Positions 2,886 to 63,842 of a stretch of DNA of 64,000 nt are shown here, piece by piece (position 1 is the stretch's first letter; each line of letters opens with the position of its first letter). The position numbers and the translations under genes were made by a program. The DNA comes from Clavelina lepadiformis (taxonomy: Eukaryota; Chordata; Ascidiacea; Aplousobranchia; Clavelinidae), in NCBI RefSeq assembly GCF_947623445.1, contig NC_135243.1:15626501-15690500 (forward strand), in the 5' to 3' direction. The notes under the pieces are model-generated. The model worked only from the letters and a program-made list of their open reading frames with translations, searched no databases and had not been told where the DNA came from.

Positions 2886-3884
2886 GAAAGTGATGGAGTT
2901 AAAAGGTTCGATATGAAAAACACTGCGAGTCGTAACAGTTGCAACCGATAAAACAATGTTTAGACAATGGGAGATCCATGTAGCTAAAGCTGACACATTG
3001 AGACTTTGATCGGAGTTAAGGTTAAGAAGCGGGTATTTCCAATAATGACTTCTTATCACAATAGATGCTGGAAAACAACTGAAGAACGTACAATAAGGAA
3101 TATTCGGTTAAAGTTAAAGTTAAATTTCCCGAATGATGCAAAGTTATCTTTTAATGTCATCCTTTTCTCTTTGCTCTCTGCGGGAGGTTTTTTGCACTCA
3201 GTGACCCTGCGCTCGTGTAAAGAAAGTAAAATTACAATGCAATCTGGGCCAGAACCAGGCCTTCTTTAAACGTAAGCCAAACCCGGTCAAAAAAGCGACT
3301 AACAACTGTGGTCAGTGGTCATATAGTTGCAGTGTCACATTTGGAAGTGGCTTTTGTCTTCGTATGCAGCTTTGCTTTCAACAGGAGCAAGAAGTCGTCA
3401 CAATGATGAGGTTGCAAAAAAAGTGCCAATAAACGACGTCATAAGCGTTTTAACGTGAAATGTTGAGTTATTATAGAAGATGCCACAACCTAATTCGAGA
3501 GTGTAAGCACGAATCCGGATTAGATCTCACGCTTTCATGCGAATGGAACTTAAAATGTTTCAGGAAATTTTAATACGCATTTCGGGACAAAACAGAAAAT
3601 ATGATTTGGCTGTTAACTGCTCATGTTGTTCTCCAATCTTTCGGATTGTAATTTATGACAAGTTTGTACCAGTATGCAAGTAACTGCAAAGAGGTATAGA
3701 AAAAGTAATTTTCGCCTTGTCCAGAGCAGTTGACGAGCACCCGACCACATCGGGCCTGTCCTAGATCGATTGCCAACCGTTTGTCGATTAACTACCGGCC
3801 GCACGGTGAATGGAATTCCCAACCGTTCGTAATCGAGCACCGATCGCAGCCGACAGTCTCTGTAATTGCCGACTACTATACTGC
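2886..3884. other. No gene seen
   Basis: No exon recognised; several short open frames have no protein-like character. The last 8 bases (3877-3884, tatactgc) are the left member of the duplication that bounds the composite segment to the right. Confidence 0.45.
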
Positions 3885-4227
3885 CAGGGTTGCCATACCG
3901 TCCTTATTTCTAAGATTTGTCCTTATTTTAAAGGTCCGTGTCTTAGAAAATATGTTTGTCCTTTTTTCTAAGAAATGTCCTTATTTTCACTTGCGTCCTT
4001 ATTTTTAGGGCAGATCGGGGTTCGTATTTTGGGCATTTTGAAACCTTTAGTATACCACTTTGTACCAAAGAGATACCAAAATTTAAAACATGCAGATAGT
4101 GTCTTGTTTTTTTGTTTTTTTTTTAGGAACATTGGTTGCTTTTTCCTGTTGTGCACTGTTTAAGGTGGTATTCGTCTTTCGATTCCTAGTCGTCCTTATT
4201 TTTGAGTTGAGACCGATGGCAACCCTG
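3885..4227. mobile_element. hAT-type MITE, left end of the composite
   Basis: 343 bp with 12-bp inverted ends cagggttgccat. It differs from the copy at 17203 at only about 3 positions, all within its first 60 bases. It contains repeated ccttattt motifs and a T-rich centre, and no protein-coding region: the identical short open frames in both copies merely reflect DNA identity. Its left flank is tatactgc and its right flank taagtacc, so it lacks a TSD of its own. Confidence 0.88.
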
Positions 4228-4518
4228 TAAGTACCCCTTATAAGTCAGTACTAGTTCTACTATGACTAAGACTACTAGCGTACTAATACTACTACGCTTT
4301 GGGTAAGGACAGTATACCGTTCTTATTTAAAGCATCGCTTTATATACAGTAAACTTTCATCATTACTCCGTAAGAAAACATAAAACTGAATAACCGTTTT
4401 AAATCAGGCCGTACAGTTAAAAACAATGTGTATAGCCTATAAGCTTTGATAGTTGATGAATGATAGTGATATGCCATAAAGCTGCGCTTATAACACCAGC
4501 TTCTTCTTCCTTTCTCAG

Positions 4519-4678
4519 TGAATTTAAAAGAGCTTTTACTTTGCCGGAAAATATGAAAACGGAAGATGTGACGTCATCTCTGTCTGAAGATGGAATTCTA
4601 AAAATAGAGGGCGTTCGTGACGTTAAACCTGCCATCACTGATGTACCAATTTTGGTCGAACATTCAAGCACTGATTAA
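4519..4678 (+). CDS. Orphan 3' exon of a small heat-shock protein (alpha-crystallin/HSP20)
   Basis: A splice acceptor (ttcctttctcag, ending at 4518) opens a frame encoding EFKRAFTLPENMKTEDVTSS followed by LSEDGILKIEG, then an acidic tail ending at TAA 4676-4678. This is the last third of an alpha-crystallin domain: in the family, the residues after the LPENV-like motif form strands ending in the LSxDGxLxI signature. Small HSPs are ATP-independent holdase chaperones. PolyA signals AATAAA lie at 4678 and 4783. No exon for the first half of the domain is visible upstream, and only 290 bp separate it from the MITE end at 4227. It is therefore either a truncated capture at the edge of the mobile block, or a gene whose upstream exons lie beyond the MITE and escaped me. 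Confidence 0.7.
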
Positions 4679-4679
4679 A

Positions 4680-5325
4680 TAAAAGCCTGTTCCGATGCGA
4701 ATACAAAATACAGAGAGCTTGGTTTACTGTGGAAGCAGCGCCATGTTATACGTTGGCTTGATTGTCTTGCTTTGTTTTGAAGAATAAAAATTGGGTGTCC
4801 AAAATTGATACAATTTAATGTATTTTATGTAAGTAGCATTTAGCGTTAGCCTATTTTACGCAAAAAAAAACAAAAGAAAGAAAGAGCGTTGTAATAGCAT
4901 AGAATACATAAATGCACTTCAGAAAATTTGCAAAAGCACAGATTTCAAGACAAGCAGCATTTGAGCTTAGCTAGAGGCTAATACTTAGTTATAAAAAATA
5001 GAATTATTCCAATATTGTCATACCTGACTTGCGCGGTAGGCTTAATCGAGTATGATTCAATACAGGTATACCTATACACTGTAATTGCAAACGCACTATC
5101 GTAGCAAATTGCTGTTGTGGAAAGCACAACACTTTGTAGTACACATGTTATGTAATGCAGGCTTACGTTTAGCACACTATTTTTTAGTAGCCTAGTACTC
5201 AATGCGTTGGTGAAAGCGTTTTGCTATGCACTCTATAAGTCTATAACATACTTTGGTTCCACAGTTTCCAGAGTAGAAAACTGCCCTCTACCTTAAATTA
5301 CACGATTCATTAAACAACTCTGACT
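4680..5325. other. 3' flank of two convergent features; no gene seen
   Basis: Probable 3' untranslated sequence of the small-HSP exon (to about 4800), then AT-rich spacer containing the 3' end of the minus-strand NXPE gene. No additional exon recognised. Confidence 0.4.
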
Positions 5326-7260
5326 TCATACATTCCAATTGCACACGTAACTGAACAACAAACGGACTTCTTCGTCTAATGCCACGTTTTTAGGATGATA
5401 ATCTGCCAAAGGAATGATCGTTGTCAAATCCCACAAATTTAAAACCACAGTATCCTTCAAATCTTTAAACACTTCCCTCATTATAGTTTCGAATCTAAAG
5501 AGCGCCCACTCGTGAGTGCATTCCACAACGTTCATACCACGAATGATAAAACGGGTTTCAGGATGGATTTTCAAATGATCCACAATAGCTTTCTTGATGC
5601 CCATTAAGCGGTGCAAATAATCGAAAGCGTGATAGTGTATCATATGAACACCAACATTAAGTACAAGGTAGACATCCGGGCCTCCAATCTGAAGAAAATC
5701 AAGACTTTCAATTATGTCGCTTATGTAAGGTCTAGTTGAAGCAGGTCCAGTTAATTCTAATGGCATTCCGTGAGTCCTGTAATAAATGGTGATGTTATTT
5801 TCCTTGCTTTCGGCTATATGAGGTGCTTGCCTGTCAATTCCATTTTGTAGTCCGCGATGCGTTAATTTAAATGTGTTTACGGCAGCTTCAAAAAATTGTC
5901 TGATGGTCGAGTCACCCAAAAAGAAGACGATTTTATTACTAAAGCAATCGCGTGATGATGCGACCGATTCAATAGGTAATGTTTGTTGCAACGACTCCCA
6001 TCTTCCATTTTTAAAATATCCTGAAGGCAAAACCGTGCCGCGATATTCTGTACCGTAATGGCCTAATGCTGAAAACTCTTTTTTTGGTGTGACTTTAATT
6101 TTTAATCCAGATCCAGTAATTTCTCCAAACTTTCCAAAAGTTGTCGTAGTCTCAAGAAACAATTTATCAAGACGAAATACTTTAACAATGTGCTCAACGA
6201 TTGGATGACAAACACCAGAAGGAGGTCTAACACAGAACCAGGGCTCTTCGGTTCTCGGGTTGCTGTAATCGCAGAGGTCTTTGGCGTTATATCTGAAAAA
6301 AGTGCAGTTTATAATGAACCACATTTCAAAAATGAAAGTTAAATTTTGGGTGCAACCAGGTTAACTGGTTTATGGTAATCATCAACTTTTTCACTAAGTG
6401 TTGTATTATGTTAAACTGTTACGAGATACAGATTGGTGGAGCGTTTCAAAATCTTACTCAATAAATTTGTCCAAGTGAAAGCCGCAAACTACTTTTTCAT
6501 TTGATTTCAACAAAGCATGATGATAAGAACGTTTGATTGTAGGTGCTTCTGTGAAATTTATCCAACGATCAATTCCTTCAACTGAAAGCAACAACTTCAC
6601 TTCCAACGTAAAATCTCCGCTCATCAACAAAGGAGCCTTCACTGTGTACGTTCCATTGGCGTGGTCGTATATCGCACAAGGAATTCCATCCACTACTTTT
6701 CCAAATCTCGTTCTGATGAGTCTTGCGCGAAAATAATCTCCTCCGAATGTTTTATTCCGCATCAGTTGATCTCTGGCTTGAATATGAGCAACAAAAACAT
6801 CTCCTACCGAATAACGTAGTTTATTTCTTGTTACAACTTTTGAAGTGATTCTCGTAAAAAAATCCGAATCTTGCAAAGGATTCTTTAGATGATAGTTTTG
6901 ACGAGATTTAAGCAAATCAGGAAAGAAATTAATCCAATCTTTCTCTTCTCTTTCAAAAGGAGGAATGGCGTCATTACTAAGGGGCAAACCGTATGTATTT
7001 TTATACTTCATGCCGAACCAAACGGAATTGGGATCCAAAACTTCTTCAGGTATTGTTACATTCTTTAATAGATTATTAAGGTTATCAAAGTTTTTTTGAT
7101 GGGAATCCAAGTTTTGTTGTTCATTCACAACTGGTTTAATCTTTTTTGAAAACAATGTAGTTACTGCTATTTCATGCTTGTACAGTAATAGAATGGTAAA
7201 CGAAAATGCTATCAAAGCCAAAAACAGGTACCACAGCTTACGCTTACAAAGTTTTCGCAT
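5326..7260 (-). CDS. NXPE-family protein (neurexophilin-like plus PC-esterase), copy D, intact
   Basis: Two coding exons, 7260-6458 and 6292-5326, joined in phase 2 (donor GA|GTAAG, acceptor TTTTTTCAG|A), give 589 aa. Residues about 9-27 are a single hydrophobic segment after a basic N-terminus, a type II signal anchor. Residues about 145-255 form the neurexophilin-like beta domain (FGGDYFRARLIRTRFG, GTYTVKAPLLMSGDF). After the intron come the NXPE cysteine-rich linker (CDYSNPR, PWFCVRPPSGVCHP) and the PC-esterase/SGNH-like domain with GDSTIRQFF at about 394 and a C-terminal DYHP motif, His about 567, the likely catalytic partners. Known vertebrate NXPE proteins are 540-560 aa with the same order; most have no settled function, though esterase or glycan acyltransferase roles are suspected. 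Expected in the secretory pathway or at the cell surface. Confidence 0.88.
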
Positions 7261-8128
7261 GTCTATCTTTCAAATGCTTCAGTCACACCATTGAAATACC
7301 TGTATTTGAAAGATCAAGTTTTTAGGTAACATATAAACCAAAGCTTAGGATGTTTTATACAACTTTTTTATCAATACTGCCACTTCCGTCATAATTACTA
7401 GCAAATATGTTATACAATTTTAGCAATAACTGTTTAATCACTATATATTACTAAAATATTCTTTCTTCGGTATACGTAATGACAAGTGACAATTAATTGC
7501 TTTTTCGTTTAAGATCAACTTGCTTTTGATCTTGCCTCTCACTTTAAAAGTGATGCTACTACTGTGTCAAGTTACATTTTTGTTGTCATACATTAAACCC
7601 GGGTTCCTTTTGCATATTTGACTACTTGAATGCATTCTAAGCTTAATTTGCGTAGAATATATTGCTAACATATAAATGTCTGCTTGGGGGATATTGTTAA
7701 AGATCAATAAAATGTGACTGTAAAGCCACAAAGTCCCGGTGCAAAAATAACCAAAGAAACACCTTTTCGTCTAACAATTCACCTTAAAGTAAGTATAATC
7801 GTTCAAAAGTTTCACTGCAACCAAATTTCACTGACTCAAAACAACGTTACAAATGGCGGTTTATGTTCGAATTATAGTCAAAAGTGAGACATTGTCTTAA
7901 TAGGAACAAACAAAACCCTTTCTCTAATGACATAGTGATGGACATAGACCCTGAGGAAAACAACCTTTACAGATATCACAAAAGGAAAACGTTATCCAAA
8001 CGTTAAGCGCTTTAACCGTGAACAACTACATAAAAGATCATTGTTTCCATTTCATTTGTCAACCAACGCTTTTATATTCCTTTACCCCGGTTCCTTTTAC
8101 GGAACACATTCAACGTCATTAAGCATTA
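7261..8128. other. Upstream region of NXPE copy D; no gene seen
   Basis: Presumed 5' flank of the minus-strand gene ending at 7260. No TATA box or coding exon could be assigned with confidence. The string ccggttcctttt occurs at about 7600 and 8085. Confidence 0.4.
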
Positions 8129-8618
8129 AGTGATACATTTCTAGAAGTTTTTCTTGTTACGCGGCGCACCCGTTCTGTGGAAAACCAGCTGACCGCGAGA
8201 AGAAAACACAACAGAACAGTTAGACGAGTTAGTTGTGCGTGAATGAATAAACGAATACGATACGCTTTAATGCGGAGAGAGAGCAAAATTATGAAAATAT
8301 AACAATATTTCAAAATTACAAAATCAAACTTTATAAAACAAACGTGGAAAGATAACTGAACCTTTTTTGGGAAAAATCACCAAACTTCAAGTTGAAGTTT
8401 ACTTGTAGAAATACTTAATTTACACTAAATACGCTTTCTTTTGTTTCACAATTATGATGTATACAGGAAGCCAGATGTTTTTGCTACTAACCTGTAAGCA
8501 TCCGATCAGTTTATGACGCATAGTTTTCGAGTAATTAACGATTGAAAATTTGTGTGTCGTGTCGACCACACATAGTTAAAATAGTAATGTCGCGCACCCG
8601 GTTTAAATAGGGTTAAAC
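8129..8618. mobile_element. piggyBac-like MITE, copy 1, internally rearranged
   Basis: The right half (about 8396-8618) matches copies at 40115-40332 and 41680-41994 in the same direction and ends atagggttaa, i.e. a CCCTAT-type terminus at a TTAA, as in piggyBac elements. The left half (about 8129-8395) matches the other copies only as its reverse complement. The block has therefore been inverted, or this copy derives from a fold-back intermediate. A left terminal repeat is not recognisable. No coding capacity. Confidence 0.7.
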
Positions 8619-9125
8619 ATTGCTTCAATAATCTTGGCTCATCTATGTATTATAGGATAAATACAGTGTCGTTATCCGCACCAGCATATACGAAAGCAGA
8701 AAGTACAAATGGCAATTGAAATGCCTTTCTTACGTGAAGTTTTTAAACATTTTTCATAACGAGACTTTGACAGTTCTTAGCAAAAATGTTATAGAAAACA
8801 TAAGTTATACTAATGCATTCCGTAATTTTGAAGGCTGTACATTTGTTCAGTATTTTGTGAGACCGCATGACACTTATTCAAAACTGTATTTGTCTTGTTT
8901 CATTGTTTACATTATTGCGCCGTGTTCCTTGCTTGGTACTCTGTTGCTTATTTCCAATAACAAAGGGCACACTAATCTGAAAGCTAAAGTATAGCTCTTT
9001 TTCCCAATTTTCCGGGCTGGAAAAATTCAATTTAATAAAGCATTGGTAACCCTGTTGTATTTATATACTGCGTTGTGTTACAAAACATTGAAGCAGGCAG
9101 CACATTCAAAACAAATAGGATATTG
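8619..9125. other. No assigned gene; one unexplained open frame
   Basis: A plus-strand frame at 8716-8994 (92 codons, one hydrophobic stretch near its end) is open, but I recognise no family and see no splice signals or codon pattern that would make it a gene. The rest is AT-rich spacer. Confidence 0.35.
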
Positions 9126-11107
9126 TTATGGATTCCAGTTGCACACGTAGCTAAACATTAAACGAGCTTCTTCGTCCAATGGCACATCACCAGGGTGATA
9201 ATCGTACAGGCGCCACACAATGGTGAAATCCCACAAATTCAAAACCACAATTTCTTTCATATCTTTAAACACATCCCTTAAAAGTATTTCAAATCTGAAC
9301 AGCGCCCACTCCTGAGCGCACTCTACAACGTTTTGACCACGAACGATGAACCTGGTTTCAGGATGGATCTTCAAATGATTCAGGATAGCTTTCTTGATGC
9401 CCATTAAGCGATGGATGTAGTATGATGCGTCGTAATGAATGAAATGGGCCCCTATGTTAAGAATAACGTAAACATCTGGACCTCCAACCATCAAAGTATC
9501 AATTGTGTCGCTTATGTAAGGTCGGGTAGATATTAGGCCCGGTACCTCAACGGGCATCCCGTGAGTCCGGTAATAAACGGTAATGTTGTCTCTTTCACTT
9601 CGCCCTAACTGGGGCGCGTGCTTGTTTATTCTATTGTCCGGGCCAGTCTGTGTTAAATTGAATTTGTGAACTGCCACAAAAAAGAACTGCCTCATGGTGG
9701 AATCACCCAACAGAAATACGATTTTGTTACGAAAGCAATCGAAGAAGCTACCGATGCTTCAGCAGATTTGTGCTGCAGCGACACCCAATGCCCATTATGT
9801 AGAAATCCTGCTGGTACGACAATGCCTTGATATTCCATACCATATCGGATAGCAGATAGAAGTTGAGCAGAAGACATTAAATCGTTTGTTGACGAAACTC
9901 TTATTCTAGATCCAGATCCATAAATTTCCCCAAATCTTCCAAACTTAAGTTTTGTCTCACGACTGATCTCGTGCGGAGGTTTGTTAGGCAATTTTTCAAT
10001 CACGTGCTCAACGATTGGATGACAAACACCAGAAGGAGGCCTTACACAGAACCAGGGTTCTTTATTTCTTGGGTTGCTGTAATCGCAGAGGTCTTCAGAG
10101 CTGTAACTGAAAATACAAATTAGCTTTGTAGTAAAATCAGGCTTAAAATGATAAACGTGGCAATTGAACAGCTACATGTCTGCTGATGCGGTAATTGTAC
10201 TATTTTTTCAAAGCGATAACTTTACGAACTGGGGTGTCCTAACGAAGGAACTCACAATTACATACTTGTCAAATCTATCCAGATGTAGACCGCAAACCAC
10301 TTTTTCATCCGATTTCAAGATAGCATGATGACAAGCACGTTTATGCACGGCTTTTTCTGTGAAATTTATCCAATGGTCAATTCCTTCAACTGAAAGCAAC
10401 AACTTCACTTCCAACGTAAAATCTCCGCTCATCAACAAAGGAACCTTCACTGTGTACGTTCCATTGGCGTGGTCGTATATCGCACAAGGAATTCCATCCA
10501 CTGCTTCTCCAAATCTCGTTCTGATGAGTCTTGCGCGAAAATAATCTCCTCCGAACATTTTATTCCGCATCAGTTGATCCCTGGCTTAAATATGAGCAAC
10601 AAAAACATCTCCCACCACATATCTTGATCGCTTTTTTAGGGAAACTTTTGAAGTGATTCTGGTAAAAGCATCCGGATCCTGTGATGGGTTCCTGAGATGA
10701 TAATTTTGACGTGATGCAAGCAAATCAGGAAAGAATTGGATCCAATCTTCTCCTATTTTTTCAAATGACGTCATGTCATATGCACTGAGCGGTAAACCGT
10801 AAATGTCTTTATATATGTTGCCATACTAAACAGTGCTAGGATCCAAGGCTTCTTTAGGTAGTGTGAAATTTTTCATGAAGTTTTGTATTTTAATCATTGT
10901 AGATTCATTTTCTTCGTTTATGTTGTTGTTAATGAATTCGTCTTGTTCGTCGACAGTTAAGTGAACTTTATTGAAAGGAAATCTAGCTTCTGTTTTCTTC
11001 ATGCATGCTAACATAACGACGCACGTCAATATTACTAAACACAAAAATAAGAGTATTCTCAATTTCTTCCAGCGTTGTGGCATGTATGCCTTGACCTTGT
11101 AAACCAT
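9126..11107 (-). pseudogene. NXPE-family pseudogene, copy C
   Basis: Same two-exon layout as copies A and D: exon 1 11107-10266 (donor AA|GTATGT), exon 2 10106-9126 (acceptor TTTTCAG|T), both in the expected phase 2. Three lesions break it. A TAG at 10828-10826 replaces an aromatic residue (Trp in D, Phe in A). A TAA at 10588-10586 replaces Gln in the HIQARDQ motif. A 4-bp loss near 9741, just before the GDSTMRQFF motif, shifts the frame. The parts outside the lesions are well preserved: signal anchor at the start, neurexophilin-like domain, CDYSNPRNKEPWF linker, esterase motif and C-terminal YHPGDV. The gene therefore died recently. Exon 2 is 981 bp against 967 in A and D, explained by an 18-bp insertion minus the 4-bp loss. 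Confidence 0.87.
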
Positions 11108-12521
11108 ACTAGACGTAAAGGTGAAGCTGAAATATAAACGAGACGCAGTTGTAAAACTCCTTTACATCGACACTTTTTATTTGTCTCATTAATACGTTTT
11201 CAACACCCTCCTGCATCGACAGCTTAATAACACATGTTCAATTGTAGCGATGAGTGTTTAATAAATCCATGCTGGCTGCTTACCCTCATTTGTTCTTACG
11301 ACTCAGTTTTGCACCACATACGTTACTGTTGCACTGCAGTTAAAATATGCTATAGGAGTGTAGGCTGTCCGTTGCTTTTCGTCGCTACCTTCAAATGCAT
11401 TGATAAACATTCATAGGTGTTTGCTCAATGATTGCTGGGGCTGCGTTGCAAAGGTTCTGTGCTTCCAATTACTTAATCAGCCATTTCTGAGGAGTCAACA
11501 TTTCTAATTGCTCACTCACATATGCAGCCTCCATGACTGCTGCGTGTTGTCTTAGTTGCAGAAAATCCGGTTGCAGAAAAACTTAAGCGATGAAAGATGA
11601 AATTTTGTATGAAGGCAATTCATTGCACCCGTGCTATAGCTTCATAGGAAAGCTGATTCGCTAAATTTTGAAAGACTTATTTTTATGTTTGTATTTTGTT
11701 ATCACTTGGCTCACTTTACACACAGATAACACATCATTTATTTACACTTAAGATTAGGGGATATAGGTTCCTCAACCTGTTTTATTCCTCGCACCATTCT
11801 CTGTATCTTACTAACACGCAGGTTGGTCGACACAAAGAAAATTACGTTTTATTTGTTACAGAACTTACGGGATTTAGTTACATAATATCACCGGTGCTTT
11901 CACAATTTAGCCTTGCATTAGCTGCACACTTAAAAGTATTATTTGTAATGAGAATTCTTATATTTTCTACATACTTTTTAACGTCGTAGCTCATATGATA
12001 CAACACGTTTAGATACAATACAATACATACAATACAATACATATGCACAAAAAGTTTATGGCAGGAATGTTGATGATACGCAGGTGTACCACCATTGTGC
12101 TGGTTCACTATAAGCTACAAAACGGAATGTCGGTGTTGCAGTTGATCGAGCCACCACGTTGCAGCAAATGATAGTTTGTGAGTTTTGTGATGCAAATATC
12201 TGTACATATATGTATATATATACGTGCGACACCACATGTGATTGTGACCCGTTTAGTGTCTGTGTGTACTTAAGTGCTCAGATGAAAAAACTTTCGTCAC
12301 AAAAATACTCTCTACAGCATGTATCGTAATCTAAGTACCAATGTCACCAAAACCTGCTTCATTGCACAAAAGCCAGAAGAACTAACACAGGTTTTCCACA
12401 ACAAACGTGAAGAATTATTAATTAATTAATTAAATGCTTTATGTCTTTGGAATCAAAGAGTCCAGTAAAACAATTAACTAAACAAAATTCGAGCTTCATC
12501 GTTTAATGAAGCTCCAAATAA
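11108..12521. other. Spacer between NXPE copies; no gene seen
   Basis: No exon recognised in 1.4 kb. Simple sequence occurs at 12012-12041 (imperfect ATACA repeats) and a short TTAA-rich run at 12415-12435. Open frames here lack any protein signature. Confidence 0.4.
12012..12041. repeat. ATACA microsatellite
   Basis: About six imperfect copies of the pentamer ATACA in the spacer between two NXPE pseudogenes. Confidence 0.7.
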
Positions 12522-13384
12522 TTAATCATTTAAAGGTATCATCGTTGTAAAATCCCAAACATTTAAAACCACAACCCTATCCAGGTCTTTAAAAATTTCT
12601 CTCAAAATGATTTCAAACCTGAAGAGCGCCCACTCTTGAATTGATTCTACAACGTTCATGCCGCGAAAAATAAATCGGGTTTCGGGATAGATCTTTAAAT
12701 GATCCAAAATATCTTTTTTGATGCGCATTAGGCGGTGAATGTAATAAGAAACGTCGTAATGCGCCAAATGAACACCTACGTTATCTATTACATAAACATT
12801 GGAACCTCCAAGTGTTAGACTTTCAATTGTGTCGCTTAAGTACGGTCTGGTGGCGGAAAGTCCTGTTAATTGTATAGGCATTCCGTGAGTCTTGTAATAA
12901 TCTGTGATGTTGTCATGTTTGCTTTGGTCTATTTGTGATGTTTGTCCGTTAATTTTACTAGCATGGAAACTGCGCGTTAAAGTAAAAGTACTTGTACCGA
13001 CATAAAAAAATTGTTTGATTGTCGAGTCGCCCAAAAGGAAAACAACTTTGTTCCGAAAGCACTCGCGTGATGAGGCAACCGATTCAATGGGAACTTTTTG
13101 TTTTAGCGACACCCATTTTTCAGCATGAAGGCATCCTGATGCAAAGCTGTCTTTTATCACCATACCATACCGGATTAAGGACAGGAAATTTGTTGCTGGT
13201 GAAACCTTAACTGGCAATCCTGATCCTTCAATCTTCCCAAATTTTCCATAAGTTGTTGTGTGCTTATGTGTTGGTTCAGCTGTAAAATTTGTCCAGCGGT
13301 AAATTCCTTCAACTGAAAGCAACAATTTAACTTCCAACGTAAAGTCTCCGCTCATCAACAAAGGAGCCTTCACTGTGTATGTTC
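12522..13384 (-). pseudogene. NXPE-family pseudogene, copy B, rearranged
   Basis: Reading on the minus strand, the frame starts abruptly inside the neurexophilin-like domain (YTVKAPLLMSGDF), runs to FTAEPTHKH and then continues directly into the esterase region (TTTYGKFG). The end of exon 1, the intron and about 50 codons of exon 2, including the CDYSNPR linker, are deleted, in frame, near 13260. The esterase motif GDSTIKQFF survives. At the C-terminus the codon after PLND is TAA, and the conserved YHP motif with the presumed catalytic His is gone, although the downstream codons (LNDEARILFS) are still recognisable. The 5' half of the gene is missing; homology stops at about 13384. A dead copy with two deletions and at least one nonsense change. 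Confidence 0.85.
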
Positions 13385-13385
13385 G

Positions 13386-14380
13386 ATACGGCATGTGCGG
13401 CAAAACGATATAAAAAATAAAAAGCAAACGAACAACATGTGTAACAAAGAGAAGCTCGGTAACCGGAGCTCGAGCGATGGGGAATCATCGCCGGGTTTAA
13501 GTCGTGCAAAGACTTTTCTCAGTCCGAGGAAAAAGATTATCAAAACAAACCAAGAAACAACCCACGTTTTTAGTTGCCCCAGTGTTTGTAGCTTATTCAC
13601 ACCCAATGCGATGAAAGAAAGTATAAATATAGAAATAGATAGCATAATAAAGAATGCATATACGAAAATATAAGTATAGACGGAAAAAGTAGCAATCTGG
13701 CAACAGCTGCCGAAATTTTCTGAAAACAGATAAGAAATAGAACATATCTGCAACTTTATGTAGGTTTATTAGTATATTTGTTTGCTTCTCAACAACTTTC
13801 TAAAACTGTAAGGATCAATAAGAAATGGTACAAAAATATCTGTTATATTTGATACAGCTTACTGTAATATTATATTCATATAAGATTTAAACTTTTCACC
13901 GTATTATAATCTACACGTTGCGTCTTGTTATGGTAATTATAATCAGTAATCACTAATCACCCTACTACGAAAGTAACCAAGGATCAACTTAAGAAGGAGG
14001 AAAAAGCAGTATATGCACTGCTAATGGATTTTCAAGATAATACGTTTCGAATGAAACTCTGGTTCAACAAACATTGCAACATCACGTAAATGTAGAATTA
14101 TAGTTTTCTACTGCAGGTTTGTTCTCCTATGCACAGAGCACTTTAAACGTTGCAGTAGCATATTTGAAACTGCAACGTCATGCTAATATGACCAAATTGC
14201 GTTTTCGTACAAAGATAAAAAAAGACAAGCAAGGAAAAAATATCATCTATCCTATAGCCTTCATGCTACTCGGTATATGAGACTTTCCGAAAGAGAAAAA
14301 ATTCTATATTTTATATTGGTCTTTACAGTTGTGTCATGGAAGAAAATGTAACGTATTTACGCTTACGTTTATAGAAACTT
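13386..14380. other. Spacer with a hydrophobic open frame, origin unknown
   Basis: Directly upstream of NXPE copy B a minus-strand frame (13753-13370, 127 codons) encodes several hydrophobic segments separated by a charged stretch (RLKPGDDSPSLELRLPSF). It could be an exon of an unidentified membrane protein brought here by the rearrangement, but I cannot place it in a family. 13760-14380 is AT-rich with nothing recognised. Confidence 0.3.
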
Positions 14381-16398
14381 TTACTTAGGCCAATTGCAGA
14401 CATAACTGAATAGTAATAATGCTTCTTCGTTTAGCGCATGTTCCCCAGGGTGATAATGTTTCAGTGGCGACACTGTGGTATAATCCCAAAAATTCAAAAA
14501 CAACACGCCTATTAAACTTTTGAACACCTCTCTAAGGATAAACTCCAATCTAAAAATTGCCCATTCTTCCATTGTTTCCACCACATTTAAACCTCGAAGT
14601 ATGAATCTTGTATCAGGAAATATTCTTAAATGATCTGCAATGGCATCGCGAATTTTCAGAATTCTATGTACGAAATACGAAGTATCGTAATGCAGTAGAT
14701 GGACTCCGATATTGAAGATAACGTAAAGAGCAGGGCCTCCCGTCTTAAGGGTCTCAATAGTGTCACTTATATAAGGTCTGGTGCCAGGCACACCCCTCAC
14801 GGATACCGGTACGCCGTGTGTTCTGTAATAGATGGTGATGTTGACTGTTTTATCCTGGCCAAGTTGAGAAGCGTGTCTGTTTATCTTATTGCTGGGACCA
14901 GTTTGTGTAAGGTTGAAGACGGCAACTGCAATCTCGAAAAATTGTCTCATAGTCGAATCTCCGACCATATAAATTACTTTGTTTTTGAAACAATTACGCG
15001 ACCAAGCGAGAGATATAACTGGTGATTTTTGCTGGAGTGAAACCCATCTGTCATTTCGGAGATATCCCGCAGGTATCGAGGTGCCTTTATATTCCATTCC
15101 GTAAGTAACATTCCAGATTATCGGATCCTTTTTTATTATTTTTATACGCACAGACGAGCCGAAGACTTCACCGAATTTTCCGTACTCTTTCAAGGAATCT
15201 ACACTGATTTGAAACGGTGGCCGCCAAGGCAACAATCTGTGTCTGTATTGAACGATGGGATGGCAGATGCCGGATGGAGGTCGAACGCAAAACCACGGTT
15301 CTTGGTTTCTAGGGTTGCTGTAATCGCATAGCTTCTCTGGCGAGTATCTGTGGAACATTGTATATTACAATAGAATTTTCCATTTCAACACTTAGGCTAC
15401 TCTAGTAAAGCCAAACATCATATATGGCTAGTAAGGACTATTGAATGTTTGTCGTTACAGATGCGGTTTTCTTTAACACGCTGTTTCGCTTTCATTTGTA
15501 CCCTTAGATAGACTATAAGTTACCTTATAAAGCCAAACTATACTCCAGTACAAATTAGCTTGAGGCTACCTTACCTCTTAAATGTCGTGAGATGGATCCC
15601 ACAATAAACAAGCTCCATAGATTTTAAAACAGCTGTGTGTATCACGACCTTGTATTCTCCTAACTCAGTAAATTTTATCCAACGATCAATTCCTTCAACT
15701 GAAAGCAACAACTTCACTTCCAACGTAAAATCTCCGCTCATCAACAAAGGAGCCTTCACTGTGTACGTTCCATTGGCATGGTCGTATATCGCACAAGGAA
15801 TTCCATCCACTGCTTCTCCAAATCTCGTTCTGATGAGTCTTGCGCGAAAATAATCACCTCCGAACATTTTATTCCGCATCAGTTGATCCCTGGCTTGAAT
15901 ATGAGCAACAAAAACATCTCCCACCACATAACTTGTTCGGTTTTTTACAAAAAGTTTAGAAGTGATTGTGGTGAAGGAGCTTGTGTCGTTTGATTGTCCA
16001 TTAGACCGATAGTTTAAGAGAGATGTTGCGAGCCATGGAAGGTAATGAATCCATTCAGTCCGTATTTGCTTAAATGACGACACCCCAAATGCGCTAAGCG
16101 GCAAACCGTAAGTATCTTTGTAAATGTTTCCATAAAATGCCGAATTTGGATTTTTGGTTTCGTCAGGTAAGGCAAAATCTTTGGTGATATTTGATGCCTC
16201 TAGCTTTTTAGTAGTCGTCTTTGCTATGTTCGACTGATAATTTCTGTAATATAAGCTTTTTGCACCAACGTAGGTAGAATCCATTTGTATACTTGATATA
16301 TAAACTAGGGATATACAACAGCTGATGCCAATCCCCAACAACGTATAATACTTCATCCAAGGAATCATCTTGCATAGCTTATTCTTAGGCCTATACAC
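14381..16398 (-). CDS. NXPE-family protein (neurexophilin-like plus PC-esterase), copy A, intact
   Basis: Exons 16398-15575 and 15347-14381 join in phase 2 (donor AG|GTAAGG, acceptor TTCCACAG|A) to give 596 aa. Order of parts: basic start and one hydrophobic anchor (about 16-34); a variable stalk; the neurexophilin-like domain (about 160-262) with the FGGDYFRARLIRTRFG block; the linker CDYSNPRNQEPWFCVRPP, which is diagnostic of NXPE proteins; then the PC-esterase domain with GDSTMRQFF (Ser about 406) and HYHPGE near the C-terminus. Exon 2 is exactly 967 bp, as in copy D. It is upstream-most of the four tandem copies, all transcribed leftwards, which suggests tandem duplication. Function as for copy D: a type II membrane or secreted enzyme-like protein whose substrate is unknown. 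Confidence 0.88.
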
Positions 16399-17202
16399 TT
16401 CATGTATAAAAGAAGCTGTGAAAGTCTTGTTCGAGCTATCGGTTTCCTGCAGCTATAATAGCCTGTACAATGTCAGAAGCTTTCTACATATAAACTAAAC
16501 ATAAGCCATTGAATTATATGTTTCTCTTCCAGCACGAAAAGTAGAAAAGATAATTTAAATTATGTTCTTCATAACTCCGTGAATGCAATACCACTTCCAG
16601 ATAACATCACACAAAGCTGACGTTATATTGCCATTTTGCGTGGACCATTTCTTCGAAGTTAAACGCACCAATTAATAAGGAAATACTGTAATACGACATA
16701 CCACGACGTGGTAATTGGAAACTTTCTGGGAAATTACCTGTGGCTTTACACTAGCTTGCAGCATTCCATACACATGGAGAGGACGCAATAAACAAGGTTA
16801 TAGGGACTTGCACATTATTTAGTGATTTAGTCGATGCATTGTGCGTTATTATCTACATTTCTGAAGCAAGTGTTTTGCTGTACTGTAACGGCCTAAAGTG
16901 TTCGATTTGGTTAACTGAGGACTTACTTAGGTTTAGGTTAAAAGTTGGATTATGGTAGTAAGGTGGTGTCACCCTGTGCCCCTAATATCACATCTCGTAA
17001 ATTTTTCCATATTACACAAATGATTGAAATATCTTCAATGTTTTGCGTTTGAAGGAAACCATTTTCTATCCTAATACTAATTAATTAACACAATCGCATT
17101 ACCAAGTCCCTTTATCAAGTCAACCCAAATTTAGCCTTCAAGCTATTTCACTGTCCTAATACACTGTATTGTTTCAGTCATGATTAGTCTATACTCTATA
17201 AG
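16399..17202. other. Upstream region of NXPE copy A; no gene seen
   Basis: Presumed 5' flank of the minus-strand gene. No promoter element could be assigned convincingly on that strand. The 8 bases before the next element are tctataag. Confidence 0.4.
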
Positions 17203-17545
17203 CAGGGTTGCCATACCGTCCTTATTTCTAAGATTAGTCCTTATTTTAAGGATCCGTGTCTTAGAAAATATGTTTGTCCTTTTTTCTAAGAAATGTCCTT
17301 ATTTTCACTTGCGTCCTTATTTTTAGGGCAGATCGGGGTTCGTATTTTGGGCATTTTGAAACCTTTAGTATACCACTTTGTACCAAAGAGATACCAAAAT
17401 TTAAAACATGCAGATAGTGTCTTGTTTTTTTGTTTTTTTTTTAGGAACATTGGTTGCTTTTTCCTGTTGTGCACTGTTTAAGGTGGTATTCGTCTTTCGA
17501 TTCCTAGTCGTCCTTATTTTTGAGTTGAGACCGATGGCAACCCTG
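17203..17545. mobile_element. hAT-type MITE, right end of the composite
   Basis: 343 bp, about 99% identical to 3885-4227 and in the same orientation, with inverted ends cagggttgccat / atggcaaccctg. Its right flank (17546-17553) is tatactgc, identical to the left flank of the other copy; its own left flank is tctataag. Confidence 0.88.
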
Positions 17546-17553
17546 TATACTGC

Positions 17554-43617: not shown

Positions 43618-43842
43618 CACCTCAATTACGCAGTGTATTGTGTTGGGAGGAATGTAGGCTTGTAACTAAAAATGCCAACTCTCCATATATATACTACGCT
43701 TGTTTTTGATGTATTTTGGTGAAAAGACTATCATTATAAGTATGGTGACTATATTTGATTATGCAACATTATAACCAAGTTTTATTGTTAAGGTTACATA
43801 TTTTTGCTTGTAAAGGGTAATCCTCAAAGTGAGCTGTTTAGA

Positions 43843-44565
43843 ATGGACACGTCATCATGGAGAATTCGTGCTGTTATGGAACCACGTGGTTTTATTCGAG
43901 TAATTGAAATTGTTCTTGCCATTGTTGCGTTTGCAACCACTGGTGGTTACCACAGTACAGCAGAATATGCTATTTCCTGTCCCAGTCAGACTATTCCAAA
44001 CTTAATTCCTGTTCCCATATCGTATCCTTTTCATTTAAATGGAAAAGATATAGCATTTGATAATTGTAGTGGGAATACCACCACAACACGAATGGAAGGA
44101 AATTTGTCACCCTCAGCTCAGTGGTTTATGTTTGTTGGTGTCACTGCTTTTTTATATTCCTTGGCAGCTGTCATTTTTTATGTTATGTTTGATGCAAAGG
44201 TGCGGCAGACTCACGAAAGAGCAGTTACCATCACTGATTTGGCTGTCACTGTTATCTATACATTTCTATGGCTTACAGCTGCATCTGCTTGGGCTTGGGG
44301 TCTAGGGGAAGTGAAGAAATGGACGAGCCAGAATCGTTTTTTTAGCAATAGTCCATTGGACTCCATTTGCAATCAAGAAGATACAACATGCAGCATCATA
44401 CGTAACCCTGATTTCACTCCGTTAAATGCTTCAGTTGCTTTTGCATTTCTCAACTTCTTCCTTTGGGGATGCAACTGCTGGTTTGTGTACAAGGAATCTC
44501 CATATCATCAGGAACCAGCAAAAGACAATGCAGGTGCACCTCCTCAGCCACCTAATAACATGTAA
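43843..44565 (+). CDS. Synaptophysin-family four-pass membrane protein
   Basis: Uninterrupted 240-codon frame from ATG 43843; the open frame extends 13 codons upstream without another ATG. Four hydrophobic segments (about 17-37, 93-115, 130-152, 195-217) give the MARVEL-type topology with both ends cytosolic. The EPRGFIRVIEIVLAIVAFAT start, the WLTAASAWAWGLGEVKKWT segment before loop 2 and the NASVAFAFLNFFLWGCNCWF last helix are family hallmarks. Luminal cysteines 46/75 and 176/183 match the two conserved disulfides, with glycosylation sequons at Asn78 and Asn195. Family members (synaptophysin, synaptoporin, SYPL) sit in synaptic and transport vesicles. The cytosolic tail is short and Pro/Asn-rich, unlike the YG-rich neuronal tail. 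Vertebrate genes have several introns; none interrupts this CDS. A short upstream exon is possible (tgtttag just before the ATG). Confidence 0.9.
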   Translation: MDTSSWRIRAVMEPRGFIRVIEIVLAIVAFATTGGYHSTAEYAISCPSQTIPNLIPVPISYPFHLNGKDIAFDNCSGNTTTTRMEGNLSPSAQWFMFVGVTAFLYSLAAVIFYVMFDAKVRQTHERAVTITDLAVTVIYTFLWLTAASAWAWGLGEVKKWTSQNRFFSNSPLDSICNQEDTTCSIIRNPDFTPLNASVAFAFLNFFLWGCNCWFVYKESPYHQEPAKDNAGAPPQPPNNM

Positions 44566-51800: not shown

Positions 51801-54090
51801 TTGCCTAACGCCAAAGGTAGACTGACCTTACATTTAATCAAAGCAGAGAGTTACAAAAGCGCCGTATAAATGTTATCAATTATTATCATTAGTGAAGCGT
51901 TTTAAGCTTTCGACGAGTAAGCCGCGTAAACTAGAAATAACAGAGTGCACAATAAACATAGAGCGTGGTCTATAAAGATAGAAAATATAGCCTAAATTCT
52001 ATGCAACATAAACATACAAATGGCATCCAACAATATCATACCGGTATAAAATGTTTATAAGCCTACCGTTATCAACCTAAAAAATGTACATAGCAACAAA
52101 TAGCTTATACACGCGTGCAGGTTTTTTTTTAAGGTTTGGTTTGGGTGACCGCTAAGTAGTTTTAAGAGACCGCAAGTGTTTCATTTAAATACCAAAAAAT
52201 AGCCATATTTACAAGTCCAAATTTTGGGAAACCGCTGGAGAAATTTGGGGGACCGTTTCGGTCACCCAAAACACCTTAAAAAAAACACTGCACGCGTGAG
52301 AGGAAGTGATCTGTTAATATTAACGCCTGCTACAAAATAAACTAGGGATAAAAAGTTTGATACAGGACTTCGTGACGCGAGTGTTGTCTGAATGATCAAT
52401 TAATCAACAGGTTACCAAGTTCATAAAGCAGTTTATTTTATATGGTTAGTTCTATTATCACTGTATGTATTCTCTTTCTGTACCTCAACTATTTTTTGCT
52501 TACACTGTACAGCGGCCAAGAGCATACCATGCTATTCTTTACCTTGATGGATATATATACCTTATTGGTGGATACGATGGGCGAAGCACGTACAACTCGT
52601 GTGATAGATTTGACATGAAAACCTGTCAGTGGAAGGAAATGTGTGGTATGCACAGTCGGTGAGTTCGACGACGTTTAGTTTACTGCTTAAAAGTATGGTG
52701 GGCGTCTAATAATAATCGCCCGTAAAAGTTTCAGAAGGATGAAAAACTTTGGCGATGTTTTCTAATATTTTCTGACATGAAAAAAATACGACTACTTTGG
52801 GTGTTGACTCAGGTACGAATAATTGTTTGTCATTGGCAGACGATGTTATGTCAGCGCCACTGCCGCAAATGATTGCATCTTTGCCCTAGGAGGTGCAGAT
52901 GGATCACGAGACGACAGGCTTAAGTCGGCGGAAAAGTTCTATCCTTCTCGCAACATTTGGGTGCGGCTTCCTGACATGTTGGAAAGACGAAGTGACGCAG
53001 GTTGCCCCTATAATTCAGTAAACATTTGAGACAATTGTGTGCTGGTTTGTGACAATGCAGAGTTAACTTAGTATAAAATCTGCGCAGGTGCATGTTGCTT
53101 GGGAAGTCGCGTGTATGTAGCTGGAGGTTTCACTGGAAATGAGTGTGTGTTCAGCGTGGAATTTCTGGACAATGATGCCGACCAGTGGACCCGTATTTCT
53201 CCCATGACCGTTCCTCGGTCTGGGGTGTCAGTTGTAGCTTATCGCGGAAAACTTGTGGTTCTCGGAGGTTATGATGGACGTGAAAGGTTGAAAAGTGTTG
53301 AAATATTTGATCCCAGTGAAAATCGCTGGGCAACATTGAGTCCAATGATAACTAAGAGGTGAATGAATTTAGGTTATTACATAAAAACAAAAAATTATAG
53401 TTTTGTTATGTGCTTTCATAATCTCAACCTTGGGTTAAGAGGTATGTGTTTTAAGCTCACTATAATAAGTTACAATGACAAACTTTTCTCTCCATTACAG
53501 GTTATTCTTTAAACTTGCAAAGACAGTGCAGTCTATCTTCGTTTGTTTCCACTTTTCTAGAAAATTTTAAACTTATTTGCCGTTATCGGCTATCCTTTTT
53601 TTCATGCAGATCAAATTTTACTTCCTGCGTGATCGACAGTAAACTTGTTGTAATGGGAGGTTTCAACGGAATTGCCACCTGCTCCGATGTGGAATATTAC
53701 GACGATGTCTGCGAACAATGCGGAGATGCATCTTGTTCTAGTTACCATCTGGGCAACAGTTCGTCCTGCTTCATTAGTCAGCTACGAACACCGCCAAAAC
53801 ACTGTGGAAAAACGACAGAGAAAAGCGATGCTGGTACGTGTTCATCCAAACGTGCACTCAATTTCGATAACGATCTTGAAATGGCTGGTACTTCTCAAAT
53901 CAGCTCATCAATCAAATCCCAAGTATCACCCGGTTTGGTTTCGCCAAGGAAAGAAATCAAAGGAAAATCAAGGTGGAAGTCTTTGCCTAAGATGTTACTC
54001 AGTCGCAGTGCTTTAAGCTCCTGTGTTATCACTGGACTATCGCCAAAGTTCTTGAACTCAGTACTTCTAGAAGATCAACAGGATGCTTGA
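48885..54090 (+). CDS. KLHL10: BTB-BACK-Kelch protein, KLHL10-like cullin-3 adaptor
   Basis: Ten exons: 48885-49099, 49275-49383, 49540-49685, 49811-50005, 50140-50280, 50389-50656, 52513-52658, 52840-53000, 53088-53358, 53610-54090. Every GT-AG junction preserves frame; 710 aa. BTB about 25-140 (FDVVLKTIDGTAFPAHRIIL), BACK about 145-265 (ending near LRHIAEI...WNLSEEDLQAFLQDDELNV), then six kelch blades from about 318, each with a GG doublet (VVGGWCGES, LIGGYDGRST, ALGGADGSRD, VAGGFTGNEC, VLGGYDGRER, VMGGFNGIAT). RCYVSATA and GGFTGNECVFSVE are close to vertebrate KLHL10, a CUL3 adaptor needed in spermatids. Blade six carries an insert of about 83 Ser/Lys-rich residues, which explains most of the excess over the usual 608 aa. 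Intron 6 (1.86 kb) holds a 21-G tract. The start at 48885 is the first ATG; an upstream exon is possible. Confidence 0.9.
51705..51725. repeat. Poly-G tract (21 bp) in KLHL10-like intron 6
   Basis: Twenty-one consecutive guanines on the plus strand, unusual in this AT-rich sequence. Confidence 0.9.
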
Positions 54091-62798: not shown

Positions 62799-63842
62799 AT
62801 GTTCTTGGCCATGACTATAGAGGGGGGGGGGGGGGGGGGTAAAATCGAAGACTCTGTGTGTTTTTGCACTGATGTTGATTCACTCATGTATGAGCTTGGC
62901 CACCAACACATTAGCACTGAGTGGAGACTGTTCATTGATTCTAGCAAAGCTAGTTTGAAAGCTGTCCTACTGCACAATGGGAATGAAAAGCCTTCTGTCC
63001 CTATTGCTCATGCTGTCGATTTGAAGGAGACGTACGAGTCTATGGAAACCATCCTACGGGTCATTAACTACCGGGCTTATAACTGGAACATATGTGGAGA
63101 CCTTAAAGTTGTGTCACTTTTGCTCGGATTGCAGTTGGGTTACACCAAGCATATGTGCTTTCTCTGTTTGTGGGACAGTCGAGACGATGCAAACCACTAT
63201 GACACAACTGAATGGCCAATGAGAACGGACTACATTGTTGGAAGATATAATGTTAAGTGCCAACCCCTAATTGATCCGAGCAAAGTGTACTTGCCACCAC
63301 TTCACATTAAACTGGGCCTGATCAAACAATTTGTGAAGGCAATGGATTTCAATGGAGATGGATTCCTGCATATAAAAGAAAAATTTGGTGCAATACTAAG
63401 TGATGCTAAACTGAGAGCTGGAATATTTGTTGGCCCCCAAATACGTGATTTGATCCGTGACCCAGTATTTCCATTCAAGCTTAATTCAATTGAATTAAAA
63501 GCCTGGAATGCATTTGTACAGATTGTACAAAATTTTCTTGGGAAGTACAGGGCAGAAAATTACTCGGAACTAGTGGACAATTTGCTGGAATCATACCGCG
63601 AAATGGGCTGCAGAATGTCGGTTAAACTGCATTTTCTTCATTCACACTTGGAATTTTTCCCGCCAAACCTGGGTGATGTGAGCGACGAGCATGGGGAAAG
63701 ATTTCACCAAGACATCTCTGTGATGGAATCGCGGTATAGAGGTCGATTTAACCCAAACATGATGGGGGACTACTGCTGGTTTCTTCAGCGTGAAACTGAC
63801 ACTGAACATACTCGAAAGAGCAAGTGTATAAAGCACTTTTGA
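62799..63842 (+). CDS. Transposon-associated protein of unknown class, 5'-truncated copy
   Basis: 347 open codons. The first 14 codons, including an 18-G tract (62822-62839) read as Gly, are probably not original; family-like sequence starts at about 62841 (KIEDSVCFCTDVDSLMYELG). Notable blocks: EWRLFIDSSKASLKAVLLHN, NICGDLKVVSLLLGLQLGYT followed by CFLCLWDSRDD, LPPLHIKLGLIKQFVKA, GIFVGPQIRDLIRD, LHFLHSHLEFFPPNLGDVSD followed by EHGERFHQD. I recall this as a high-copy protein family scattered through invertebrate genomes, uncharacterised and behaving like a mobile-element gene. FIDSS, GDLK and DEHGE could be the acidic triad of an RNase H-like (DDE) transposase fold, with CFLC as a metal-binding knuckle; this is my inference. 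The C-terminus looks complete, the N-terminal part is missing. A broken sister copy is at 46275-46507. Confidence 0.65.
   Translation: MFLAMTIEGGGGGGKIEDSVCFCTDVDSLMYELGHQHISTEWRLFIDSSKASLKAVLLHNGNEKPSVPIAHAVDLKETYESMETILRVINYRAYNWNICGDLKVVSLLLGLQLGYTKHMCFLCLWDSRDDANHYDTTEWPMRTDYIVGRYNVKCQPLIDPSKVYLPPLHIKLGLIKQFVKAMDFNGDGFLHIKEKFGAILSDAKLRAGIFVGPQIRDLIRDPVFPFKLNSIELKAWNAFVQIVQNFLGKYRAENYSELVDNLLESYREMGCRMSVKLHFLHSHLEFFPPNLGDVSDEHGERFHQDISVMESRYRGRFNPNMMGDYCWFLQRETDTEHTRKSKCIKHF
62822..62839. repeat. Poly-G tract (18 bp)
   Basis: Eighteen guanines inside the open frame of the transposon-associated gene, at the point where family similarity begins. Confidence 0.9.

Follow-up and report, generated by a model that had tools for sequence, protein, structure and literature searches.

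Composite transposons in other organisms

Bacterial composite transposons have the arrangement insertion sequence (IS)-gene-IS, in which a pair of like elements moves the intervening DNA. In Drosophila, foldback giant transposing elements carry white and roughest, an animal case in which elements flank and move genes. Miniature inverted-repeat transposable elements (MITEs), on the other hand, are usually regarded as passive passengers. Here we analyse a 64,000-nucleotide stretch of the genome of the ascidian Clavelina lepadiformis (C4:15626501-15690500, contig NC_135243.1; hereafter the window), in which two MITEs of 343 bp flank a cluster of NXPE genes, spanning 13.7 kb in all, and we find that its best reading is the transposase-mediated insertion of the whole MITE-block-MITE unit. 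Such a unit would be a natural, MITE-built macrotransposon in a chordate. It is unlike the bacterial IS composites in that the flanking MITEs are without transposase and have eukaryotic, putatively hAT-like ends, and unlike the Drosophila case, which involves foldback elements and far larger segments.

The closest described counterparts are the macrotransposons of the maize Ac/Ds system, which is of hAT type, in which two transposon copies likewise bracket host DNA (PMC9910405, PMC4270019, PMC3260210). According to excerpts of these reports, Ac macrotransposons of 10.3 kb and of 28 kb are known; the 28-kb unit excised and left a modified footprint of its 8-bp target site duplication (TSD), and a second macrotransposon copy was found while the first remained in place (PMC9910405); a Ds-Ac pair mobilised up to ~100 kb (PMC3260210). 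The maize units have Ac, fAc or Ds ends and, in the same excerpts, were observed by genetics, whereas the C. lepadiformis unit has two short MITEs and a cargo of gene copies, and is reconstructed from one assembly. Much like this block, Teratorn of medaka is a large piece of animal DNA carried by a DNA transposon, but the part of its description available to us presents a piggyBac-like transposon fused to a herpesvirus rather than MITEs around host genes (PMC10175614). Among the matches listed in the open-licence literature, as represented by titles and the starts of abstracts, none describes a MITE-built macrotransposon in an animal.

A pair of sister MITEs without their own target site duplications

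An earlier note on this stretch had described two same-orientation MITEs with about three differences, identical outer octamers and unmatched inner flanks. The pair and its flank pattern are real, and consist of the following features.

3877..3884, no strand: left outer 8-bp TSD TATACTGC, off-consensus for the MITE family (score -4.7)
3885..4227, plus strand: left MITE (M1), 343 bp, matching the usual family state wherever it differs from M2 (three sites)
4228..4235, no strand: left inner flank TAAGTACC; the corresponding junction on C6, GTTA/TAAG, is spanned by the preferred-type octamer GTTATAAG, unduplicated there
4228..17202, plus strand: block between the MITEs, matching C6:18034965-18056281
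17195..17202, no strand: right inner flank TCTATAAG, half of the TCTATAAG-TCTATAAG footprint on C6
17203..17545, plus strand: right MITE (M2), 343 bp, with three derived substitutions
17546..17553, no strand: right outer 8-bp TSD TATACTGC, equal to the left outer octamer

Both MITEs are full-length, with complete ends (CAGGGTTGCCA...TGGCAACCCTG), and differ by 3 substitutions at MITE positions 34, 48 and 50, being identical elsewhere; when polarised by other family copies, all three changes are derived in M2. These differences are packed within 17 bp (window 17236-17252). Neither MITE has a TSD of its own, as TATACTGC is present outside the pair only, and the inner flanks TAAGTACC and TCTATAAG differ from each other.

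All searches were made in a single assembly of 209 Mb in 95 contigs. The search for the MITE family gave 773 first-look candidates, 40 of which were scored, and 30 fetched loci provided 31 copies, namely M1, M2 and 29 others. M1 and M2 share the same three letters in an insertion at which 24 of the 29 other copies have a gap and 5 have other letters, and both have a substitution that all 29 lack. With two mismatches allowed, a marker 27-mer of M1 and M2 occurs at exactly 2 places genome-wide. Because this private marker is found at these two places only, M1 and M2 are sister copies.

The block has a counterpart on C6

The block was queried in pieces; a query with the whole block (2087 first-look candidates, 38 scored) was dominated by a nested dispersed repeat at 8128-8618 of the window, to which stretches at ~39.8-40.3 kb of the window are related. 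The earlier note had proposed looking for further copies of the block, and one was indeed found, albeit without MITEs: an NXPE cluster on C6, colinear with the block at 94-97% identity and measuring 21.3 kb compared with 13.0 kb on C4. Homology to C6 begins at base 4228, directly after M1, and ends at base 17202, directly before M2. The fetched flanks of the C6 cluster have no match to the window outside the block, with the exception of one 95-bp repeat at 23214. The sequence comparison thus supports the block as a copy of an NXPE cluster from another chromosome.

Alignment of the two copies contains 244 substitutions in 7933 columns (4228-12122) and 109 in 5028 columns (12190-17202). Noncoding divergence outside a repeat that we call B is 107 of 4575 sites (~2%). 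The C6 cluster has repeats B and B' ~8.2 kb apart, while C4 has a single B; the 8.2-kb difference in size could be a deletion on C4 or a duplication on C6, and the site pattern, a mosaic, favours neither over the other. Dating by comparison of MITE and block divergence gave no clear answer, since the divergence of M1 and M2 (3/343) lies below the noncoding value for C4 and C6 but with a Fisher p of 0.087. An exon to the left of the C6 cluster resembles, judged by eye, a small heat-shock (HSP20) protein.

The two edges of the C6 cluster differ in what they preserve. In the assembled haplotype, neither of the two edges has a MITE, and no junction of a MITE end with the C6 right flank occurs anywhere in the assembly, with up to 3 mismatches allowed. 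At the right edge, the expected site of M2, C6 reads TCTATAAG-TCTATAAG, an excision footprint of the kind left by a MITE cut out with both TSD copies retained. Since TCTATAAG is also the inner right flank on C4, M2 was formerly located on C6 with its own TSD, and its right-hand TSD partner on C4 has been exchanged for TATACTGC. At the left edge, GTTA followed by TAAGTACC runs continuously across the C6 junction; it contains GTTATAAG, offset by 4 bp from TAAGTACC, and a random octamer attains the target score of GTTATAAG with odds of ~0.0015. Considered as flanks of a donor site, the right inner flank is therefore matched by the C6 footprint, while the left one has no MITE trace on C6.

The reverse transfer, with the block inserted into C6, was rejected. 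The C6 edges are without MITEs, the outer octamers there are two different ones (CGATGTTA and TCTATAAG), and the tandem octamer belongs to the right MITE only, as its TSD.

The MITE family and its target preference

The MITE is non-coding, with terminal inverted repeats of the CAGGG type (ends CAGGGTTGCCA), which we take to be hAT-like. The family is accordingly a putative hAT-like one on just two characters, the 8-bp TSD and these ends. An exact 25-base MITE end occurs 318 times in the genome. Exact 8-bp TSDs flank 23 of the 29 other copies in the first set; the remaining 6 comprise three with 1 mismatch, one with 2, one with 3 and one with a 9-bp match in a shifted register. A second set consisted of 25 copies with a same-orientation neighbour, chosen by eye from 100 listed of the 318 places, and contains several copies of one insertion within a tandem or segmental duplication; here 15 TSDs were exact, 7 had one mismatch, 1 had two, 1 was shifted and 1 copy had no recognised right end. 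Foreign flanks on both sides, the pattern of M1 and M2, were seen in none of these 25 copies. The outer duplication of TATACTGC is exactly 8 bp, the TSD length of the family.

A model built from the 23 exact TSDs has the consensus N-Y-TATA-R-N, and under it two insertions of the family share an 8-mer ~0.4% of the time. With a score of 7.2, TCTATAAG is among the preferred targets. TATACTGC is far from the preferred target, with an expected frequency of ~7e-7.

Sequences with a hAT domain are abundant in the genome, a number of them with open frames of >600 aa. Eight matches, each of 41.9 bits, have open frames of 854 aa (such as C1:25535821-25536024), which suggests a recently active hAT family.

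Copies of the MITE also occur in tandem or segmental arrays at C1:12067863-12107547 and C3:901027-1079640. In the C1 array, four successive copies have an exact spacing of 9633 bp, and one TSD is common to 4 of the 5 copies, those that were fetched; in the C3 array, all seven fetched copies have one TSD, different from that of the C1 array. A plain duplication, tandem or segmental, of a MITE-bearing stretch was rejected as the source of the block, as the copies in these arrays retain a common TSD. Elsewhere on C1, copies at 4040935 (+) and 2399030 (-), separated by 1.6 Mb and oppositely oriented, have the same 12-bp flanks, which suggests an inverted segmental duplication.

Possible routes from C6 to C4

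The evidence leans, though not heavily, towards a composite transposon, or macrotransposon, in which the MITE-cluster-MITE unit was assembled on C6 beforehand and then inserted into C4. Insertion as one unit by a transposase is indicated because the outer duplication has the length of the family TSD, the limits of the copied segment are exact and the TSD partner of M2 was exchanged. Two sister hAT-like MITEs would have come to flank the NXPE cluster on C6. A transposase of the family, acting in trans, would then have paired the outer end of each MITE, the left end in the left copy and the right end in the right copy, as if they belonged to a single large element, and the whole unit would have been inserted into C4 with duplication of TATACTGC. 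The donor may have been restored from the sister or homologous chromosome; alternatively, the assembled C6 may be the other haplotype, which lost the right MITE separately. As in a macrotransposon, host DNA is enclosed by two copies of the same transposon, and the arrangement of their outer ends appears usable in form. We infer that the donor cluster already had a MITE on either side when it moved and that the transposase acted on the outer ends.

The hAT-type mobilisation of a whole block that the earlier note had suggested is supported in part, by the C6 copy with its exact MITE bounds, the outer 8-bp TSD and the right footprint on C6, with the hAT label itself drawn from the TSD and the ends. 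Its two-MITE donor holds for the right MITE, through the footprint, and is less secure on the left, where there is no trace, TAAGTACC is off-consensus and the pre-formed donor would have to be supplied by inference.

Several observations weigh against a macrotransposon. The C6 left edge has no MITE, duplication or footprint, and the C6 footprint calls for an excision of its own or for a difference between haplotypes. Close to the footprint, 19 of 677 sites differ, which is not below the divergence in other parts. Neither TAAGTACC (score -5.1) nor TATACTGC (-4.7) reaches the minimum of the 23 exact TSDs (-3.4), and preferred-type sites lie 4 bp and 2 bp out of register with them, respectively. 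The empty site by which the earlier note had proposed to check the insertion was not found, as the joined C4 flanks match only their own locus in the genome search of this single assembly. Nor was an autonomous hAT with CAGGGTTGCCATACCGTCC ends found by comparing distances between hAT domains and MITE ends: of 666 domains at first look 150 were scored, and the 68 on C1-C3 were compared with 100 listed of the 318 end places, on C1, C2 and the start of C3, with a nearest distance of 18.9 kb.

One possible alternative, which we consider fairly unlikely, starts from a single right MITE on C6. During S phase, its ends on the sister copies, or else on a circle or re-replicated fragment, would have been inserted on C4; the MITE would have been duplicated with its left-hand flank, the left inner junction would be an end-joining scar, and the sister chromatid would have retained the cluster with the TCTATAAG-TCTATAAG footprint. 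This would account in one step for the sister MITEs, the right footprint on C6 with the cluster retained and the traceless left edge. Furthermore, the right MITE's TSD TCTATAAG and the octamer GTTATAAG at the C6 left junction both contain TATAAG, which could be a microhomology of 6 bp with 4 bp lost. Composite insertion of the re-replication type is to our knowledge known only from maize. There, as far as the excerpted description goes, Ac composite insertions with microhomology or recombination junctions do occur, but they begin from two elements with reversed Ac/fAc ends, and the paper does not use the term sister chromatid transposition (PMC4270019); a version with a single element is our extension of them. 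A single event would also equalise the divergences, whereas that between M1 and M2 tends to be lower than that between C4 and C6, at the Fisher p given above. If true, this route would be a natural means of gene duplication in a chordate, one that leaves a ready-made composite transposon at the target.

Homologous recombination would produce the same final structure if a MITE-cluster-MITE circle or ectopic copy from C6 had entered a resident C4 MITE with TATACTGC as its TSD; we consider this quite unlikely. The earlier note had excluded a circle on the grounds of the inner flanks, an argument that fails, as a circle formed by recombination between two MITEs is expected to have non-matching inner flanks, and recombination into a C4 MITE therefore has to be weighed. 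The tandem arrays of the family elsewhere make recombination at such loci plausible. Against this, the private marker is nowhere but in M1 and M2, so that the resident MITE would itself have had to come from that private lineage. For the insertion of one MITE on its own, TATACTGC is an unusual target, although it is equally unusual for the macrotransposon. An assembly artefact, in which a MITE on C4 was wrongly joined to an alternate C6 haplotype whose cluster has a MITE at either edge, is very improbable. The ~2% divergence of C4 and C6 could be that of haplotypes, and the published assembly, in the excerpted paper, is one haplotype and not fully phased, with alternate contigs deposited separately; however, the same source reports 117-fold HiFi reads, a consensus quality of 67.4 and Hi-C curation (PMC10884593), and reads of this kind should not be confused by a repeat of 343 bp. 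To two independent MITE insertions with outer flanks alike by chance we give practically no credence. The earlier note had excluded them with a chance figure of 1 in 65,000, which ignores target bias; target preference lifts matches above those of random octamers, to the ~0.4% of the TSD model. The C6 copy, whose homology stops precisely at the inner edge of each MITE, is a stronger argument than octamer odds, and it refutes independent insertions as the note had concluded. In addition, the right MITE has a different TSD on C6, and the 53 other sampled copies for which both ends were found carry their own exact, mutated or shifted TSDs.

NXPE genes of the block

The block contains four NXPE-like genes or gene remnants, all on the minus strand, of which two are intact and two are broken.

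5326..7260, minus strand: intact NXPE gene 1, 589 aa, exons 7260-6458 and 6292-5326, GT-AG intron, GDS motif
9126..10894, minus strand: second NXPE gene, disrupted here by the loss of 4 bp that C6 copy B retains
12462..13387, minus strand: truncated NXPE pseudogene with 2 in-frame TAA
14384..16284, minus strand: intact NXPE gene 4, at least 558 aa, matching P0001; its C6 counterpart is frameshifted by one base

The two intact genes that the earlier note had reported are thus present. The second exon of gene 4 has 100% identity over 325 aa to the Clavelina lepadiformis protein P0001, and both exon parts of this protein are present letter for letter in the window. P0001 has the NXPE C-terminal and neurexophilin domains (PF24536 and PF06312), and PF24536 was found on 4 of 6 frames of the block. 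Gene 1 has an N-terminal hydrophobic anchor (by eye).

Both intact genes have the GDS serine motif. The DXXH motif is absent from both, with DYHP and HYHP in its place. In the excerpted report, NXPE1 is a human sialic acid O-acetyltransferase, and other NXPE members such as NXPE4 differ at DXXH too (PMC12216134). The block proteins are like human NXPE1 in their neurexophilin-like and NXPE C-terminal domains and their GDS motif, and unlike it in having DYHP or HYHP rather than DXXH, insofar as that excerpt describes it (PMC12216134).

Comparison of C4 and C6 reveals reciprocal inactivation. Gene 4 is intact on C4 and frameshifted on C6 (C6:18053485-18054460), while the second gene has its 4-bp deletion on C4 and an open exon on C6. 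In gene 1, 17 codons differ non-synonymously and 14 synonymously over the two exon frames. The C6 copy of the truncated pseudogene is stop-free in the matched stretch, with the same parts missing.

Other open frames of the window include one of 347 aa at 62799-63842 without a Pfam match, a MARVEL domain at 43804-44565 and a Kelch motif at 53515-54090.

Implications

A MITE pair that moves a complete gene cluster between chromosomes would be a concrete way for DNA transposons to duplicate entire genes in animals. For this block, a related donor locus is identified, with a footprint left there. The C4 and C6 copies now differ in which of their genes are broken, and such events could contribute to presence-absence variation in the NXPE family.

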